Of a DNA stretch of 64,000 nt, positions 1,467 through 41,660 are shown piece by piece. The position numbers were made by a program, and so were the translations under genes. This DNA is from Gemmatimonadaceae bacterium (lineage in GTDB: Bacteria > Gemmatimonadota > Gemmatimonadetes > Gemmatimonadales > Gemmatimonadaceae). The notes below the pieces were generated by a model, which saw only the letters and a program-made list of their open reading frames with translations, was not told the DNA's origin and searched no databases. Where the stretch lies: contig JAHBVS010000002.1 in the NCBI GenBank assembly GCA_019637445.1, forward strand, positions 1-64,000. The letters run 5' to 3'. Position 1 is the first letter of the stretch. Every line of letters starts with the position of its first letter.

Positions 1467-1659
1467 TTTGCCACAGAGGCACAGAGACACAGAGGTGTCG
1501 CGACGCAACCAGCCCTCTGTGCCCAGGCCAACCGCAACTTCGAAGGGGGCTCGGCGGACATAATCTGTCCACGAAGCCCCCTTCAAAGTTCAGTTGAGAT
1601 CAGACACAGAGGCCAACGCGCACGCTCAACCCTCTGTGTCTCTGTGCCTCTGTGGCAAA
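1467..1659. mobile_element. MITE-like palindromic element, copy 1
   Basis: A 193-bp element in the gap between two convergent genes. Its ends (1467-1495 and 1631-1659) are a perfect 29-bp inverted repeat starting TTTGCCACAGAGG. The middle holds a second inverted repeat, with GAAGGGGGCT near 1541-1550 facing AGCCCCCTTC near 1575-1584. It encodes nothing. A related copy lies at 25525-25714 and single arms at 61-88 and 12864-12891. The layout is that of a non-autonomous miniature transposable element. I do not recognise a named family, and I see no certain target-site duplication. Confidence 0.75.
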
Positions 1660-1690: not shown

Positions 1691-3031
1691 TTACATCGCA
1701 ATCTTCCCTTGCTGCTGCCGGATCTTCTCCAGGTACTTCTGGAAGAAGTGCTTCTGGATGTCGTTCATGTTGATCTCACGACCCTGGATGTACGCCTGGT
1801 CGATGTTCGACATCATGTCCAGCGGCGTCCCCGTCGTGATGAGCAGCGTCGCCTGCTTGCCCACCTCCAGCGAGCCGACCTTGTCCGCGATGCCCATCAA
1901 CTCGGCCGCGTTGATCGTCACCGCCTTCAGCGCCTCCTCTTCCGGCAGGCCAAAGGCCACCGCAACACCGGCCTCCCAGGGGAGACGGTTGCTGTAGAGG
2001 CCACCCGCGCCGCCCGAGATGGCGAAGCGCACGCCTGCCTCGTGCAGGCGGGCCGGCATGTGGTACGCGCCATCATAGGCCTCGTGCTGACGGTCCGGCG
2101 CGGCCATCGTGCTCGTGAGGATCACCGGCACGTTCTCCGCCTTCAGGCGGTCGGCCACGTAGATCGCGTCGCGACCACCGCGGATGACGATGCGCAGTCC
2201 CTCTTCCTTGCCCCAAGTCAGGGCGTCGTTGATCTGCGCCACGCCCTCGGCCGCCACGATCACCGGGATGTCGCCGTTGAGCGCGGGAATCATCGCCGCC
2301 AGGCGCACGTCGCTGCGCACCTGCTGGCCTGCCTTCACCGCGTCACGGTAGGCCCGCGCCTCGGCGAAGTAGTCCTTCAGCTCCTGCACCTGCTCGGCGT
2401 AGGTCTTCGGCGCCTGCTGCGGGCCGCCGCGACCTCCGGGGCCACCGAAGAAGCGGCGCGGCCGGGCGATCGGATCCGGCCAGTTCACGTTCAGCGCCGC
2501 GGCGCCCTTCATCGACATCTCCTCCCAGGTCCAGCCCTCGAGCGACATCGCCGAGGAGAGGCCCGAGATGACACCGCCACCCGGCGTGGTGAACGCCACG
2601 AGCACACCGGCCGAACGCGTCGTGCCGATGTGCCGGCTCTCCGCGTTCACCGCAATCTCGGCGCGCACGTTCGGGTTGAAGTCGCCGATCTCGTTGATGT
2701 CGTTCGACACATCCACCGCGCCGATCTCGGTAATGCCCACGGTGCTGTAGGCATCGATGAGGCCCGGATAGATGTGCTTGCCCGTCACGTCGACGACCTT
2801 GGCGCCGCGCGGGATCTCCACGTTGCGGCCGACGGCCACGATCTTGCCGCCATCGAGCACGATGGTGCCGTTCTCGATGGTGCCGTTGGTGACGGTGTGG
2901 ATCGTCGCGCCACGCAACACCACCGGCTCCGACTGCGGCGGCACGGTCATGCGTACCTGCGCGCCGGCGCCGGCCGCACCTGCAAACAGCAGGGCGGCGG
3001 CGCCGAGGAAGCTTCGCTGCATCGGATTCAT
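1691..3031 (-). CDS. Exported amidohydrolase-like protein
   Basis: A 446-residue member of the imidazolonepropionase-like amidohydrolase superfamily. The start is the ATG at 3031, which opens a signal peptide (MNPMQRSFLGAAALLFAG, cleavage near GAQ); a longer frame lacks one. It lies one base after the stop of the larger amidohydrolase gene, so the two are surely co-translated. The fold markers GKHIYPGLIDAYSTVG and a C-terminal EAGVAVAFGLPEEEALKAVTINAAELMG segment (spread over about residues 330-390) are present. However, the metal-binding His-X-His after PGLID is replaced by AYS, so catalysis in the usual way is doubtful. It probably partners the 998-residue protein, as a regulatory or scaffolding subunit. 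The substrate is unknown. Confidence 0.8.
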   Translation of the reverse strand: MNPMQRSFLGAAALLFAGAAGAGAQVRMTVPPQSEPVVLRGATIHTVTNGTIENGTIVLDGGKIVAVGRNVEIPRGAKVVDVTGKHIYPGLIDAYSTVGITEIGAVDVSNDINEIGDFNPNVRAEIAVNAESRHIGTTRSAGVLVAFTTPGGGVISGLSSAMSLEGWTWEEMSMKGAAALNVNWPDPIARPRRFFGGPGGRGGPQQAPKTYAEQVQELKDYFAEARAYRDAVKAGQQVRSDVRLAAMIPALNGDIPVIVAAEGVAQINDALTWGKEEGLRIVIRGGRDAIYVADRLKAENVPVILTSTMAAPDRQHEAYDGAYHMPARLHEAGVRFAISGGAGGLYSNRLPWEAGVAVAFGLPEEEALKAVTINAAELMGIADKVGSLEVGKQATLLITTGTPLDMMSNIDQAYIQGREINMNDIQKHFFQKYLEKIRQQQGKIAM

Positions 3032-3032
3032 C

Positions 3033-6029
3033 TTAGTGGTCCCCCTGCCCAGGCCCACGGGCCGGACGATTGGTGGGTGCATTGCCCTCGGTCCCGCCGG
3101 CGGCCAGCACCGCCTGGATCAACTGCTTGCGCTGGCGCTCGACCTCGACGCGCAGCAGCGCGTCCTCCTCGAGCGAGAAGTAGCGACGGCCGTCCACCCA
3201 GGTCTGCTCGGCCTTGGTGAACTGCGACAGCGGGTGGCCGTTCCAAATAACGAAGTCGGCGTCCTTGCCGGGCTCGAGCGAGCCCACGCGGTTGTCGATG
3301 GCCACCGCCTTCGCGGCCTGCAGCGTGATGGTGGACATCGCCGCCTCCTCCTCGACGCCCGAACGCAGGAGCTTGCCGGCCTCCCAGTTCATGCGCGTGG
3401 AGATCTCGGCGTCGTCCGAGTGCAGCGCCGTCACGACGCCGGCTTCCATCAGCAGGCGCGCGTTGTAATTCGTCGCATCGTAGGACTCGAGCTTGAAAGC
3501 GCCCCAGTCCGACCACACGATGGCGGCGACGCCGGAGTTCTTGAGCTCGGTGGCGATCTTGTATGCCTCGACGCCGTGCTGCAGCGTCTGGATGCGGAAG
3601 CCGAACTCCTCGGCCAGGCGCACCAGCGCGAGGAACTCGTCCGCGCGGTATCCGTGCGAGGCGACCAGCAGGCGCTGGTTCAGGATGTCGACCAACGCCT
3701 CCATGCGGAGGTCGCGGCGCGGCGGGATGCCAGCCTTCGTGCGGTCGGCCTCCCAACGCTTCCACTCCGCCTCGTAGTCACGCGCGGCCATGAAGTGGTC
3801 GCGGATGATTTCCTGCACACCCATACGGGTGTTGGGATAGCGGTTCGGGCTGCGCTTGGGGTTCTCGCCCAGCGCGAACTTCACGGTGCGTGGCGGGTTC
3901 TCGAACTTGAGTGCGTCGGGCAGTGCGCCCCAGCGGTTCTTCACGAACACGTTCTCGCCACCGATGGGGTTGGCCGAACCGTGCTTCACCATCTGCGACG
4001 TAAGCCCGCCGGCCAGCTGGCGGTACATCCAGATGTTCTCGATCGTGAGCACGTCGCCCATCTGCACTTCGGGGACGATGGCGAAGCCGCTCTCGTTCAC
4101 CGAGCTGACGCCGGTGTGCGTGTGCGGATCGATCAACCCCGGCGTGACGTGCTTGCCGGTGGCGTCGATCTCCACCGCGCCGCGCGGCGCGGTCAGGCGC
4201 TGCCCGACCTGCACCACCTTGCCGGCACGTACCAGCAGGTCGGCGTTCTCCATCTTGCCCTGCGGGCCCTGCGTCCAGATGGTGGCGTTGCGCACCACCA
4301 GCACGGCGGGCTGCTCGGGCGGCGTGGCGCGGCCGAACTCCATCGACGGACGGAGCCACGGCAGCTCGATGTTCGGCACCTTGGCCGCCACCGTACCGCG
4401 CGCGGCATCGTCCACCTTCTCGGTGCGCGTGCCGCGATACGCCGGGTCCGAGCCGTTGGGCAGCGACATCCAGCCGAAGAACTCCTCACCGCGCACGTTG
4501 CCCGTGAGGAGGATGGTGCCCTGATAACCCAGCTGCTCACCATTGAAGGTGGCCTCGAGGCGACCCGTCTCGGAGATCACGCGCGCCGAGGCCAGGTTGA
4601 TGGGGCGGCGGTTCGGCACCTCGACCGTGCCGCGCACGCGGTTGATCGGACCCTCGAGGCGCAGCGTCGCCGGGAATCCAGCGGCGTCATCGGTGGCGAT
4701 CGTCCAGGTGCCGCGCGGGTCGATCTGCGGCGGACGGGTCACGCCGTAGCGCATGCCCTGCACCCACACATCGCGCACGCTGGCTTCGGTCGTGAAGAGG
4801 TCGCCGTCGGCGACGACGAGGTTTGCCACCTTGCCGGCGGCGATGGTGCCGTGCGTGCGCTCGATGCCCAGCCAACCGGCGGGCACCGTGGTGAGCGCGG
4901 CCAGTGCCTTGTCCGGCGCGAGTCCACGCGACACCGCGATGCGCAGGTTCGGCAGGAACTGGTTCAGCGACGACAGCCCGTCCGTCGTGATGGCGAAGGG
5001 CACGTTGGCCTCGGCCAGCTTGGCGGCGTTTGTCGGCGCCAGGTACCAGTGGCGCAGCTGCCCCAGCGTCACGTTGATCGCGGCCTCAGGCGTCGCGACC
5101 TCGGGTGCGTCCGGGAAGGTGAGCGGGATGATCAGCGGCTGCGTGCGACCCTTCAGCACGTCGATCAGCTTGTATTCCTCGCCGCTGCCGCGGAACCAGG
5201 GCGTGAGCTTGTAGTCCGCCGCGATCTTGTAGGCGCGGAGGTACTCCTCCTCGCTCGACGTCTGGAACAGCACCGCCTGGCGGCCCTGCACGGCGTCGCC
5301 GAGCGCGGCCAAGGCCTCGCTGGTCTCGGGCGGCAGGATCGAGCGGCCGCTCTTCTCGTAGGCGGCCCAGGCGCGGATGTACCACTCCGCATCCATAAAG
5401 GTCTGCTTCATCAGGGCCGTCGTGCCCATCGCCGAGTTCGGGTACATGCCCCCGAGCTGGAACGAGCGGTTGAACCCGATGGCCTGCACGAGGTCCGGGC
5501 GCAGCACGCGCTCACGGACACCGGCATCGCTGAGGTTCACGACCGAGGCCTTGCCGCGGAAGATGCCCTGCTTCGGGACGGCGAGCGCGGTGCCGAAGCC
5601 CAGCGAGCGCAGGCTCATCCGGCGGGTGCTGTCGTCCTTGAAGCTCGAGGTGGTGCTGTACCAGGCGCGCACCTGCGGATTCCAGTGCGTCGGGCCGACG
5701 TCACCACCCTCGGGCACGGCGTCCATGCCGAGGTCGGCGTGCGCATCGATGAAGCCGGGATAGACCGTCTGGCCGGACAGGTCCCACACGCGGGCGCCAG
5801 CCGGCGCCTGCCCGCGACCGACCGAGACGATCAGGCCGTTGCGAATGACGATGGTGGCGTTCTCGACCACCTGACCCGGCGCCGTGACCACGCGCGCACC
5901 GACGAGGGCGTGGAAGCCCGAGCCGTTGTCGCGAAGCCCCGTGATGGGTTCAGTGCGGGACGATTGCTGGGCATCGAGTCCGCTGGCGAGCAGCAGGGCG
6001 AGGCCCAGAAGGGAGCGAATCACTCTCAC
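3033..6029 (-). CDS. Tandem two-domain exported amidohydrolase
   Basis: A 998-residue protein with two amidohydrolase domains in a row, at about residues 40-430 and 600-970. The GTG at 6029 is taken as start: it is preceded by GGAG at good spacing and opens a signal peptide (MRVIRSLLGLALLLASG). The first domain has an incomplete metal site (PGFIDAHAD). The second keeps PGLIDPHTH, later His residues in ASHGYRAD and LQHGVEAY, and the acidic LHSDDAE, so it is the probable active half. Between them is a beta-rich stretch (FPATLRLEGPINRVRG). Proteins of this layout are usually annotated as amidohydrolase family, and cyclic amides or dipeptides are possible substrates. It overlaps nothing and is followed after one base by the smaller paralogue. 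Confidence 0.85.
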   Translation of the reverse strand: MRVIRSLLGLALLLASGLDAQQSSRTEPITGLRDNGSGFHALVGARVVTAPGQVVENATIVIRNGLIVSVGRGQAPAGARVWDLSGQTVYPGFIDAHADLGMDAVPEGGDVGPTHWNPQVRAWYSTTSSFKDDSTRRMSLRSLGFGTALAVPKQGIFRGKASVVNLSDAGVRERVLRPDLVQAIGFNRSFQLGGMYPNSAMGTTALMKQTFMDAEWYIRAWAAYEKSGRSILPPETSEALAALGDAVQGRQAVLFQTSSEEEYLRAYKIAADYKLTPWFRGSGEEYKLIDVLKGRTQPLIIPLTFPDAPEVATPEAAINVTLGQLRHWYLAPTNAAKLAEANVPFAITTDGLSSLNQFLPNLRIAVSRGLAPDKALAALTTVPAGWLGIERTHGTIAAGKVANLVVADGDLFTTEASVRDVWVQGMRYGVTRPPQIDPRGTWTIATDDAAGFPATLRLEGPINRVRGTVEVPNRRPINLASARVISETGRLEATFNGEQLGYQGTILLTGNVRGEEFFGWMSLPNGSDPAYRGTRTEKVDDAARGTVAAKVPNIELPWLRPSMEFGRATPPEQPAVLVVRNATIWTQGPQGKMENADLLVRAGKVVQVGQRLTAPRGAVEIDATGKHVTPGLIDPHTHTGVSSVNESGFAIVPEVQMGDVLTIENIWMYRQLAGGLTSQMVKHGSANPIGGENVFVKNRWGALPDALKFENPPRTVKFALGENPKRSPNRYPNTRMGVQEIIRDHFMAARDYEAEWKRWEADRTKAGIPPRRDLRMEALVDILNQRLLVASHGYRADEFLALVRLAEEFGFRIQTLQHGVEAYKIATELKNSGVAAIVWSDWGAFKLESYDATNYNARLLMEAGVVTALHSDDAEISTRMNWEAGKLLRSGVEEEAAMSTITLQAAKAVAIDNRVGSLEPGKDADFVIWNGHPLSQFTKAEQTWVDGRRYFSLEEDALLRVEVERQRKQLIQAVLAAGGTEGNAPTNRPARGPGQGDH

Positions 6030-9744: not shown

Positions 9745-10698
9745 GTGCCGACCACCCCAATCCTCGAGATGCACGCGGTCACGCGTCGCTGGCGCCCCTC
9801 TCCCCTGGGTGGCAGTGACGAGCGCCTCGCGCTCGCGCCGCTGTCATTGGAACTGAAGAGCGGCGAGCTGATGGCCGTCGTCGGCGCGGCAGGCTCTGGC
9901 AAGAGCACCCTCGCACTGCTGGCGGCGGGCAAGGTCGCACCGAGCTCGGGGATCGCCCGCTGGTGCGGTGGCCCCGACCCTGCAGCGGCGAGGCCGCAGC
10001 TCATCGGACCTCGCCCCTGGGAATACTCCTTCCTCACCGTGCGGCAGGCGCTGGCCTTCCACGCCGATGTGCTCGCGCTGCACGACGACGCGCTCGCCGC
10101 ACCCACGCGCTTCGTGCCGCTGATGCGCGAGGTCGGGCTGCGCGGACTCTCGCGCGTGCGACTTGGCGCCCTGGGCCCGTTGGACCAACTGCGCATCACC
10201 ATCGCGCAGGCGCTGCTGGCCAAGCCGCGTCTCATCTGCATCGAGGAGCCGTTCGTGTTCTGCGGACCCGCCGAGCGTCGCGAGGGCGTGGCGCTGCTGC
10301 ATCGGCTGGTCGGCTCCGGGCTCGCAATCCTGGTGACCGGCCGCACCGTGGAGACCTGTGGCGGCCAGGGCACGGCCGACCGCGTGGTGATGTTGCGCGA
10401 CGGCATGATGCTCAACGCCGAGCCAGCTCGGCCATCGCAGATCGTGCTGGACCTCAAGGTGCCCAGCGCGGAGGAGGCGCTGCGGCGGCTCAGCGCGCGC
10501 CTGCCGAGCGTGCGGAAGCGCGGACGGCGGCTGCGGGTGACGCTCGAGGAGCTTTCACCAGAGGCGGTGCTCGCGGTCTGCCGCTCGGAAGGGGTGGAAG
10601 TCCGCGCCTCACGCGTCGCTGAGGAGCCGTTGCCACCTCGCAGTGAGGACGCGGGGGAAGGCCCCACGCCGTTGCCGCCCCTCCCGCCGAGTCCCTAG
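9745..10698 (+). CDS. Atypical ABC-type ATPase
   Basis: An ATP-binding-cassette protein of about 317 residues from the GTG at 9745; another GTG at 9715 would add 10 residues and neither has a ribosome site. The chosen start leaves the usual few residues before the first strand (ILEMHAVTRRW). Walker A is intact (GAAGSGKST). The signature is eroded to LGALGPLDQ instead of LSGGQ, and Walker B reads LICIEEP with Glu in place of the Asp. A C-terminal domain of about 90 residues (LDLKVPSAEEALRRL onward) resembles the tails of some export ATPases, ending in a Pro-rich run. No permease gene is adjacent. Its function is unknown. Confidence 0.7.
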   Translation: MPTTPILEMHAVTRRWRPSPLGGSDERLALAPLSLELKSGELMAVVGAAGSGKSTLALLAAGKVAPSSGIARWCGGPDPAAARPQLIGPRPWEYSFLTVRQALAFHADVLALHDDALAAPTRFVPLMREVGLRGLSRVRLGALGPLDQLRITIAQALLAKPRLICIEEPFVFCGPAERREGVALLHRLVGSGLAILVTGRTVETCGGQGTADRVVMLRDGMMLNAEPARPSQIVLDLKVPSAEEALRRLSARLPSVRKRGRRLRVTLEELSPEAVLAVCRSEGVEVRASRVAEEPLPPRSEDAGEGPTPLPPLPPSP

Positions 10699-12116: not shown

Positions 12117-12137
12117 GGCGCCGAAGGCGCCTCAACG
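12111..12137 (+). terminator. Hairpin containing the cysS stop codon
   Basis: A perfect 12-bp stem (CGTTGAGGCGCC facing GGCGCCTCAACG) with a GAA loop. The cysS TGA lies at 12114-12116, inside the left arm. There is no T-tract, so it may work with the next palindrome, protect the mRNA end, or both. Confidence 0.5.
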
Positions 12138-12140
12138 GCT

Positions 12141-12210
12141 GACGAAGGACGAAGGCAGCAGGAGGTGAGGCCGTACGGCCTCGCCACTTTCGTCCTCCGT
12201 CCTTCGTCGG
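12141..12210. repeat. GAGGCCG palindromic element, copy C
   Basis: A long imperfect hairpin. The left arm is GACGAAGGACGAAGG, the core 12164-12185 is GAGGCCG-TA-CGGCCTC with extensions, and the right arm ends CCGTCCTTCGTC. It lies between cysS and the tRNA promoter and could fold as one stem of about 30 bp. Related copies are at 7800-7827, 8331-8358 and 12470-12555. Confidence 0.75.
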
Positions 12211-12217
12211 CCCTCGA

Positions 12218-12464: not shown

Positions 12465-12469
12465 TTTTG

Positions 12470-12555
12470 GACGAAGGACAGCGAAGACGAAGGACGGAGG
12501 TTGTAGGAGGCGAGGCCGTACGGCCTCGCCACTTCCGTCCTCCAACCTTCGTCGG
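12470..12555. repeat. GAGGCCG palindromic element, copy D
   Basis: The same design as copy C, with a purine-rich arm of GACGAAGGAC repeats, the 22-base palindrome at 12509-12530 and a pyrimidine-rich arm ending AACCTTCGTCGG. It fills most of the gap between tRNA-Tyr and tRNA-Gly. Further GGACGAAGG runs without a palindrome lie at 12690-12720, between tRNA-Gly and tRNA-Thr. Confidence 0.75.
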
Positions 12556-12610
12556 TTTCGGCAGGATGCGGTCGGAGTGGGCCGTACCTTGGGATGCGGG
12601 ACGAAGTAGT

Positions 12611-12863: not shown

Positions 12864-12891
12864 CCTCTGTGTCTCGGTGCCTCTGTGGCAA
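12864..12891. repeat. Isolated arm of the MITE-like element
   Basis: It matches the right terminal repeat of the element at 1467-1659 except for one base (TCTCGGTG for TCTCTGTG). No left partner is present nearby. Confidence 0.65.
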
Positions 12892-25524: not shown

Positions 25525-25714
25525 TTTGCCACAGAGGCACAGAGACTCAGAGGGCATTCGTGCGAGCCGAGGTCTCTGTGTCTTCTTTCCTTGGAACTGA
25601 AGGGGGCTTGGCGGAAAGATCCGTCCCCCGAGCCCCCAAAGAAGTTGCAGTTGGATCAGACACAGAGGCCAACGTGCGTTCCGACCCCTCTGTGCCTCTG
25701 TGCCTCTGTGGCAA
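25525..25714. mobile_element. MITE-like palindromic element, copy 2
   Basis: A 190-bp relative of the element at 1467-1659. The left end (25525-25553) differs from copy 1 at one base, and the right end (25687-25714) at one base. The inner hairpin is kept but diverged: GAAGGGGGCTTGG near 25599-25611 faces CCGAGCCCCC near 25628-25637. The left flank GGAACTGC and the internal string ATCAGACACAGAGGCCAACG are also shared, so the two are true copies rather than chance palindromes. Confidence 0.75.
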
Positions 25715-35281: not shown

Positions 35282-36943
35282 ATGCAGTGGTTTGCCAACC
35301 TTCGGATCAAGACCAAGCTCACGATCGGGTTCTCCGTCGTCGCCGCGCTCACCGTGCTGTCGGGCGCGGTGGGCAGCTGGGCCATCCGGACGCTCAATCA
35401 GGCGGACACCAAGATGTACGAGACCGTCGTGGCGCCGTACGCCGACGTGCTCGGTGTCGCCGAGGGCGTGCAGCGCACCCGTCGTGACGTCCGCATGACC
35501 CTGATGGCGGATCCCGGCAGCGAGACGCAGGACGCGCTCGATGGCCTTGAGGAGTCCGCATCGCTGCTGTCGTCGTCGCTGTCGCTGCTGGCACGCGCCG
35601 AGCTTGACTCGTCCGTGCAGCAGTCGGTGACGGCCGTGCAGCAGGCGCACGACGCCTGGGCGCCGGTCAAGGACCAGCTGGCCGGACTGATGCGCGACGG
35701 CAAGCGCAGCGCCGCCGCCAGCCTTGCCTCCGAGTCGCTCGACGCGGCAGCCGAGGCCCTGGTCTCCGCGCAGAGCGACCTGGTGTTCGCGCTCAGTGGT
35801 CGCGGTGACGAGATCGCCCGCGAGAACTCAGTGCTGGCGCGCAACGCGACCATCGCCCTGGCGGCGGTGGTCATTCTCGCCGTGCTACTCGGTGTGCTGC
35901 TTGGCTTGGTGATTGCCCGGCAGATCGGCGTCCCGATTGCGAAGGCCGTCGAGGCGTTGGAGGCCGTGGCCTCGGGCGACCTCACGGTGCGCAGTGAGAT
36001 CGCGGGTTCGGCTGAACTCGGCCGCCTGAGCGATGCGCTCAACCGCGCGACCTCGGCGATGCACGACTCTATGGAACAGATCGACAAGAACGCGCAGGCC
36101 CTGGCCGCCGCGTCGGACCAGCTCAGCGCCGTGGCCTCGCAGATGGGCAACAACGCGCATGAGACCTCGTCGCAGGCGGGCGTGGTGTCCTCGGCCGCCG
36201 AGGAAGTCTCGCGCAACGTGCAGACCGTGGCCTCGGGCAGCGAGGAGATGGGCGTGTCGATCAAGGAGATCGCCCGCAATGCCGCACAGGCCGCGCAGGT
36301 GGCGCTCAGCGCGGTGCAGACCGCCGACCGCACGAACTCGACGGTCACCCAGCTCGGTGTCTCTTCGCAGGAAATCGGCGCCGTGGTGAAGGTGATCACG
36401 GGCATCGCCGAGCAGACGAACCTGCTGGCGCTGAACGCGACGATCGAGGCCGCGCGCGCCGGTGAGGCGGGGAAGGGCTTCGCGGTGGTCGCGAACGAGG
36501 TGAAGGAACTGGCCAAGGAGACGGCGAAGGCGACGGAAGACATCGCCCGCCGCATCGAGGCCATCCAGGGCGACACGAAGGGCGCGGTGGGTGCGATTGG
36601 CGAGATTGCCGGCGTCATCCGTCAGCTGAACGACATCTCCGGCACCATCGCCTCGGCGGTGGAGGAGCAGGCCGCGACCACGAACGAGATCTCGCGCAAC
36701 GTGGAACAGGCGGCCCGGAGCGCGCACGAGATCGCCGGGAGCATCTCCGGCGTCGCGTCGGCTGCGGAGAGCACCTCGCACGGCGTGCAGGACTCGCAGC
36801 AGGCGGCCCGTGAGCTGGCCGCGATGTCGGCGGCGCTGCGCACGCTGGTCTCGCACTTCCGGCTGAGCGGAAGCTCGGCCGATGTGGTGGAGCTGCCCTC
36901 TGCCGGTGCTGCGGCGGAGTTTGGCGTAGCCCGCGCCGCATAA
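35282..36943 (+). CDS. Methyl-accepting chemotaxis protein
   Basis: A 553-residue chemoreceptor. Membrane helices lie at about 13-34 and 190-213, enclosing a helical periplasmic sensor domain of some 150 residues (four-helix-bundle type, rich in Asp/Glu/Ala). A HAMP domain follows (about 214-266, [20 protein letters not shown]). The kinase-contact tip is [20 protein letters not shown], near residue 380. No C-terminal CheR-tethering pentapeptide is present. The ATG at 35282 follows AGGAG. The signalling half is nearly the same as that of the second mcp, 5 kb on, which also has 553 residues. Confidence 0.95.
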
Positions 36944-39998: not shown

Positions 39999-41660
39999 AT
40001 GCTGCAGTGGTTCAAGAACATCCGCATCCGGCCCAAGCTGATCGGCAGCTTCGCCATCGTGGCTGCGGCGGGCGCCTTCGCCGGCACCTTCGCCATCAGG
40101 AGTATGTGGGAGATCGACGACGCGGACACGTATATGTTCACGAGCGTCGTCAAGCCGTACGCGGAGGCGATGTCGCTGATCGACCACGTCCACGTGGCAC
40201 GGATCCATATGCGCAGCGTGTTGCTCGAGACGACGGCGAGCGGTCGCCGTGCCGCCGTGGATCGCACGCACGACGAGGCGGCGCAGGCCAAGTTGGCCTT
40301 GGCGCGCCTCGACGCCCTGCAACTCGACAGCGCCGACCAGGCGGCAGTGACCGCCGTGCGGCAGGCGCACGACAGTTGGGTCCCGGCACGGGAGCGGCTG
40401 CTGGAGTTTGCGTCGGCGGGTCGCGTGCGCGAGGCTGAGCAGGCGCGGGCGGACGTGGACGAGACCGCCGGGGCCCTCGCGCGGCAATTGACGGCCCTCG
40501 CCTCCGCTTTGGCGACGAGCGGAGAGCAGTTGGCCCGCGACAACACGGCGCTCGCCAAGCGCGCCACGGTCGTCGCATCGCTGTTGCTGGCGCTGGCCTT
40601 CATCGCCTCTGTCCTCGGTGGGCTTTTCATCGCCCGGCTGGCAACGACAACCCTCGTGGAGGCGCTACGGGCCCTGCAGAGCGTGGCACAGGGCGATCTC
40701 ACTGCACGCGCCGTCGTCGATTCCGAGGACGAGTTCGGCGAGATGAAGGCCGCCATCAACGCGGCGGCGACCGCGATGCAGGACAGCATTCGGCAGATCG
40801 CCGAGAACGCGCAGGCGCTGGCCGCGGCATCCGAGGAACTCTCGGCGACCTCGACCCAGATGGGCGCCAACGCCCAGCAGACCTCGCAACAGTCCGGGAT
40901 GGTCTCGGCGGCTGCCGAGGAGGTCTCGCGCAACGTGCAGACGGTGGCCTCGGGCAGCGAGGAGATGGGCGTGTCCATTAAGGAGATCGCTTCGAACGCC
41001 GCGCAGGCAGCCCAGGTCGCGCAGGGCGCGGTCGCCACGGCGGACCGCACGAACCAGACCGTCACCCAGCTCGGCGCCTCGTCGCAGGAGATCGGCGCCG
41101 TCATCAAGGTCATCACGAGCATCGCCGAGCAGACGAACCTGTTGGCGCTGAACGCGACGATCGAGGCAGCCCGCGCCGGAGAGGCGGGCAAGGGCTTCGC
41201 AGTCGTCGCGAACGAGGTGAAGGAGCTGGCCAAGGAGACGGCGAAGGCGACGGAGGACATCGCGCGCCGCATTGAGGCGATCCAGGGTGACTCGCAGGGT
41301 GCCGTGTCCGCCATCGGCGAGATCGGTGCCGTGATCCGCCAGCTGAACGACATCTCCGGCACCATCGCCTCGGCGGTGGAGGAGCAGGCCGCGACCACGA
41401 GCGAGATTGCGCGCAACGTGGAGCAGGCCGCCGTGGGCGCCAAGGACATCGCCAGCACCATCACGGGTGTGTCGTCGGCGGCGCAGAGCACCGCGCAGGG
41501 CGTGCAGAACACGCGTCAGGCCGCCGAGGAGTTGGCGGCGATGGCGAGCGCGCTGCAGACCTTGGTGGCGCGCTTCACCTTCGAGGCCGGCGGGCGCAAC
41601 CACACGCCGGTGGTCGACATCACGGCGCGTCGCCCGCGCCACCACAGCAAGGCCGCCTGA
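39999..41660 (+). CDS. Methyl-accepting chemotaxis protein
   Basis: A 553-residue chemoreceptor of the same build as the first: membrane helices at about 13-35 and 190-213, a helical periplasmic domain, HAMP ([20 protein letters not shown]) and the tip [20 protein letters not shown]. The sensor half differs greatly from the first receptor while the signalling half is almost identical, including 61 identical bases at 41340-41400. No C-terminal pentapeptide. It sits between cheW and cheY, 82 bases after cheW, with no clear promoter or ribosome site. Confidence 0.95.

Follow-up and report, generated by a model that had tools for sequence, protein, structure and literature searches.

Dispersed extragenic palindromes of a Gemmatimonadaceae bacterium and their probable tie to a stationary GxxExxY nuclease gene

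In this study, we analyzed a window of 64,000 nucleotides at the beginning of contig JAHBVS010000002.1 of a Gemmatimonadaceae bacterium, together with its genome and those of relatives, and found a family of palindromes probably linked to a stationary gene that encodes a GxxExxY nuclease of the PD-(D/E)XK type, in an arrangement like that of REPINs and RAYTs in which the nuclease replaces the HUH transposase. The family is multi-copy, symmetric in arms and core and placed at the 3' ends of genes, and it is linked with the gene by matching arm dialects and by co-occurrence. From this association, which does not prove causation, we infer that the nuclease moves, maintains or homogenizes the repeats. 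The element at 1467-1659 of the window is best explained as a non-autonomous member of a genome-wide extragenic palindrome family whose arms are inverted short tandem units.

This element is 193 bp long and lies between convergent neighbors, a forward-strand gene with its stop at 1438 and a reverse-strand gene at 1691-3082. Its ends (1467-1495 and 1631-1659) form the perfect 29-bp terminal inverted repeat described in the original prediction. The left arm, on the forward strand, consists of TTTGCC and three CACAGAGR units and is 100% complementary to the right arm, on the reverse strand. Judging by their letters, the subterminal CCCTCTGTG (1513-1521, reverse strand) could pair with the left arm and GACACAGAGG (1603-1612, forward strand) with the right arm, each giving a side hairpin. 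At 1545-1581 lies the core palindrome GGGGGCTCGGCGGACATA/a/TCTGTCCACGAAGCCCCC, for which compensatory changes were seen in a set of 28 cores. The folding energy of the element as single-stranded RNA is -120.5 kcal/mol, with z = -12.6 relative to 200 shuffled sequences. The predicted copy at 25525-25714 proved to be a real second full element, in which 27 of the 29 bases of the arms are complementary, the fold z is -10.2, and, by comparison of cores, a core palindrome lies at 25602-25637; it follows an rpoC-like gene and the ordinary terminator of that gene and precedes an MFS-like gene. Two solo right arms, both on the reverse strand, also occur in the window. The partner of that at 61-88 may be off the contig, which begins at base 1, and that at 12864-12891 stands directly after an ordinary terminator-like hairpin and is not in the equivalent spacer of three relatives (G010, G012, and G006). 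Apart from tRNAs, no known RNA families were found in positions 1-27000.

Two further repeats were observed in the window. Palindromes of another family, with arms of the GACGAAGG type and the core GAGGCCGTACGGCCTC, occur at 7781-7827/8331-8377, 12132-12217, and 12466-12555, and the copy between two tRNA genes (spacer 12466-12610) is absent from G005, G012, G010, and G006, where the spacers measure 11-54 bp. In addition, 36140-36439 and 40857-41156 are a 300-bp direct repeat, 83% identical, in neighboring coding regions.

The source genome (G000; 3.35 Mb in seven contigs) gave 112 matches to the window element, and, the element being nearly palindromic throughout, copies align on either strand. 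Arm matches with at most three mismatches numbered 133, against 12 for the reversed control, and approximately 48 outward-facing arm pairs and 12 solo arms were delineated in about 55 fetched stretches, including the two solo arms of the window. The earlier count of two full copies is therefore correct for the window and far too low for the genome, and the family is not a pair of copies fixed at the same sites; some orthologous sites lack the element. Pairs are 50-320 bp long, mostly 189-199 bp with the longest at 320 bp, and a short class of approximately 75 bp has the form arm-loop-arm. Each arm (28-29 bp) is composed of GCC and three 8-bp CACAGAGR units, uniformly pointing inwards. Outside the arms are the modules AACTGC, GCGCTGAG, and GTGGCGAG, frequently symmetric as well; what had been taken for shared outer flanks is an extra AACTGC module found on many copies. 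Long-class elements carry a further inverted pair, CACAGAGG, that could form side hairpins, and their center is a near-perfect 36-bp palindrome, most commonly GGGGGCTCGGCGGACAGATCTGTCCGCCGAGCCCCC. Across 28 cores, pairing partners co-vary at nearly every position in some copies, and the core palindromes are maintained by compensatory changes. Arms are more alike within than between elements (1.9 vs. 2.4 mismatches; permutation p = 1e-4), and identity between copies reaches 95% in arms and approximately 63% in interiors, relative to a shuffled baseline of 50%. Neither excision, nor target-site duplications, nor recent near-identical copies were seen in the family; target-site duplications, which the original prediction had proposed to look for, cannot be defined here because the palindromic modules run beyond the arms.

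According to a simple codon-based gene caller, by which orientations are approximate, the genes on either side are convergent for 33 elements or arms of the source genome, tandem for 19, and divergent for none. Gene junctions of these three kinds in the window number 5, 44, and 4, respectively, and the excess of convergent over other placements was significant (p = 5e-9). The typical position is approximately 20 bases beyond a stop codon, and this placement behind genes agrees with that described for REPs (PMC3733652). At one locus (L049), four genomes (G000, G002, G012, and G005) carry elements of differing units and cores behind the same gene, and G003 has a plain terminator-like hairpin only. 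Behind rpoC, the element is present in the source genome alone among five genomes compared, an intact terminator precedes it, and approximately 5 kb of G005 and G012 is missing from G000. Empty sites had been suggested as a further check; one relative site holds a plain terminator-like hairpin, another has a differing gene order, and a clean insertion with duplication was not seen among them. Orthologous sites thus reveal turnover without clean insertion plus duplication. At the position of this element behind rpoC, G005 carries a long GGGAGAT/GGGAGGT heptad palindrome (L179, ∼10120-10500), and related solo heptad arrays are present in other genomes.

The exact 28-base arm was also found in genomes assigned to Verrucomicrobia, Geobacter, Anaerolineae, Acidobacteria, Kiritimatiellae, Planctomycetota, and Gemmatimonadaceae. 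A CCACRRAG pattern of three units at a period of 8-9 bp was detected in 14 of 61 relatives and never in reversed controls, and the arrays are patchily present among close relatives. In G022, the few matches possibly represent a tandem repeat within coding sequence (L231). Units differ between genomes in the manner of dialects: CACAGAGR in G000, CACAGAGGR in G005, CACGAAGR besides CACAGAGR in G012, and CACRGAGGA in Gemmatirosa kalamazoonensis (G032). Individual loci showed other architectures, including a four-shell nested palindrome with shells of different tandem units in G005 (L236) and an interleaved palindrome of the order A B core A' B', again of different tandem units, in G012 (L247). 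In an Acidobacteria genome (G064), a Y1 transposase fragment lies approximately 80 bp from a CACAGAG arm pair (L164).

In one relative of the same genus, G008, inverted arms bound a 432-bp stretch with a single family-recognizable reading frame of 124 amino acids, a GxxExxY protein (TIGR04256, 134.6 bits with a cut-off of 35; PF13366, PDDEXK_3, 132.3 bits). The catalytic D...E-x-K residues are conserved in the family, with D, E, and K each at 94% or more of 54 aligned domains, and judged by these profiles and residues the partner is a clear member of the GxxExxY family and a predicted PD-(D/E)XK nuclease. A profile search of the PDB matched 4ic1 non-significantly (E = 0.41). The protein had no match among known defence families, a pattern scan of viral contigs found no relative, and we found neither a link between the GxxExxY/PF13366 family and repeats nor a paper on the repeat sequence itself in the open-access library searched. 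GxxExxY proteins are widespread, and we know of no established function for them.

Inverted arms flank 21 of 51 GxxExxY loci, as opposed to 5 of 403 ordinary genes (p = 7e-18), and the other 30 GxxExxY genes have no detectable arms. The 21 loci scored above all 5,100 shuffles, which preserve base composition only. When TIGR04256 was searched in the same 61 relatives that were scanned for arrays, GxxExxY was present in 12 of 14 array-bearing and 9 of 47 array-free genomes (p = 1e-5), and within the genus in 6 of 6 and 1 of 11 (p = 6e-4); the Fisher p-values throughout overstate independence because the genomes share kinship, and several of the contrasts were picked post hoc. Arrays are numerous in G058, where GxxExxY gave no match. 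The gene occurs once per genome in the genus, and all six array-bearing genus genomes have it with arms, each with a version of its own. One site is common to G000, G002, G008, and G012, with differing arms, and another to G005, G016, and G003, so that the gene appears stationary at orthologous sites. G003 carries the gene without arms and has arrays nowhere in its genome, and it serves as a natural control. At another locus (L374; G060:C94:14093-14389), intact arms flank an internally deleted GxxExxY gene, possibly a step from a gene-bearing to a gene-less element. On plasmids of Bacteroides, Bernardetia, and Sphingomonas, the gene is set tightly between others with scant room for arms; on that of Sphingomonas parapaucimobilis (L379), it lies almost without spacers between fabD and fabG of a fatty-acid operon.

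The arms at the gene match those dispersed through the same genome. The contrast framed as a prediction was the dispersal test, in which 12 arms were defined at GxxExxY loci of six genomes and sought in approximately 1.26 Mb from seven genomes, with the defining gene of each arm excluded by coordinates. All 31 matches fell in the genome of origin, with none in other genomes and none for reversed controls, and several sit in two-sided hairpins. For four of the 12 arms, the sampled DNA yielded no dispersed copy; one of these was that of G021, which could not score because no G021 stretch was in the sample. The gene arms of G025 are not of the CACRRAG type and no CACRRAG arrays occur in that genome, yet they disperse within it. 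CACAGGG units, which are found in the gene arms of G008, occur 13 times in its elements and 0, 0, and 1 times in those of three other genomes. In the source genome, the exact 29-mer at the GxxExxY gene is also present in two dispersed copies; the gene arms (ACCACGGAG type) fit a minority subfamily, and the window element is of the majority GCCACAGAG type.

The element resembles bacterial MITEs such as NEMIS, RUP, and ERIC in size, in terminal inverted repeats or a long palindrome, and in being non-coding and intergenic (PMC3733652), but the arms here are tandem 8-9 bp units, and neither a duplication nor a matching insertion sequence was found. The TIR repeats of TIR-associated tyrosine transposases (PMC3733652) similarly hold a gene inside the terminal inverted repeats of a dispersed family, with an enzyme of another family and a Y1 domain that is absent here. 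With REPINs and RAYTs (PMC3116915), the family has in common that hairpins of two inverted units are scattered outside genes and accompanied by solo remnants, that a non-mobile gene, mostly present once, has identical units nearby, and that each genome and gene has unit types of its own. In contrast, the present family has multi-repeat arms within nested palindromes of 50-320 bp, and its partner is a PD-(D/E)XK nuclease instead of a Y1 HUH enzyme. Like REPs and REPINs, it is high-copy, extragenic, and mainly 3' of genes, as its 133 arm matches and the 33/19/0 placements show; a Y1 RAYT gene beside the repeat was found neither in G000 nor in its 16 genus relatives, in place of a 20-40 bp unit tagged with GTAG or CGTC there are 28-29 bp arms flanked by AACTGC or GCGCTGAG modules, among which no constant GTAG/CGTC tag was visible by eye.

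Several other explanations were weighed. It is unlikely that GxxExxY is a mere passenger and that another activity spreads palindromes which capture or border the gene. Arms without the gene in G058, the 30 of 51 genes without arms, and a gene fixed in place while arms turn over would all suit a passenger, but ordinary genes are bracketed far more rarely, a single gene family is bracketed by many unrelated dialects, the majority of the dialects tested also occur dispersed in the genome they come from, and within the genus the presence of the gene predicts arrays. Less probable again is an origin without any mobility protein, from terminators or 3'-UTR hairpins whose growth and symmetry come from replication slippage and template switching between arms. 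Because dozens of unlinked loci have the same arm and core, local growth is insufficient; moreover, the element at 25525 sits past an intact terminator, the arm direction is uniform, and the GxxExxY link would be left unexplained. These points outweigh what such an origin would account for, namely the invariable position 3' of genes with no divergent sites, the ordinary terminator-like hairpins at equivalent sites in relatives, the compensatory core changes, and the ability of template switching to create and maintain hairpins (PMC8794818).

We consider it very improbable that this is a classic REP/REPIN family whose mobilizing RAYT (Y1 HUH) transposase was lost from G000. The Y1 profile (PF01797) had no match at E ≤ 1 in G000 and none in the 16 genus relatives, so that Y1_Tnp is absent from all 17 genus genomes, the array-bearing ones included, and only one of 50 fetched Y1 loci, a fragment, was near an arm; this stands against the palindromic, extragenic, REP-like singlets and doublets behind genes (PMC3116915; PMC3733652) and the Y1 proteins that were found in other phyla, in several genomes with arrays. 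A RAYT partner was accordingly not supported at the sensitivity used. The least credible candidate is a MITE belonging to an ordinary insertion sequence of the DDE type, yet to be found: despite the 29-bp terminal inverted repeats of a non-coding, dispersed family, no duplication was seen, and as the widest spacing among fetched G000 arm pairs is 320 bp, no pair brackets a transposase-sized gene. The original prediction of no transposase in the window was borne out, and a full-length transposon with the same ends was not found, the transposase family searched being Y1_Tnp. Ends of the same type do bracket GxxExxY in G008 and others, as they would an autonomous partner of a MITE, but that gene looks stationary. 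The mobile non-autonomous family originally proposed therefore holds as to its dispersed, non-coding copies with terminal inverted repeats, patchy among close relatives; a classic MITE of an active transposon is not favored, because the partner found is a nuclease whose gene appears stationary and neither a duplication nor, with Y1_Tnp as the family searched, an IS-type transposase with these ends was found, and a REPIN/RAYT-like arrangement is favored instead.

In such an arrangement, the most likely mechanism is that the nuclease would recognize the arm units as a cruciform or single-stranded hairpin and cut hairpins or cruciforms that contain arms; repair or recombination would then copy arms and entire elements elsewhere and homogenize the arms, and insertions would persist only behind gene ends. 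This mechanism would explain why arms are homogenized within a species despite drift of the interiors, and why the arms at the gene change jointly with the dispersed ones. To our knowledge, no PD-(D/E)XK nuclease has been described that transposes DNA by itself, and the stronger claim, that the GxxExxY nuclease reads the short tandem units and alone spreads and rewrites palindromic repeats in trans, is one that we put forward tentatively, as possible rather than likely. If true, such a system would mobilize DNA with no need of a transposase, recombinase, or reverse transcriptase, and it might operate in several phyla. The link itself offers a function for the GxxExxY family that can be tested, and a second enzyme class beside the HUH transposases to which the spread of REP-like repeats has been tied. 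The dialects, furthermore, offer a natural recognition code, in which gene arms and repeats of sister species change in step.
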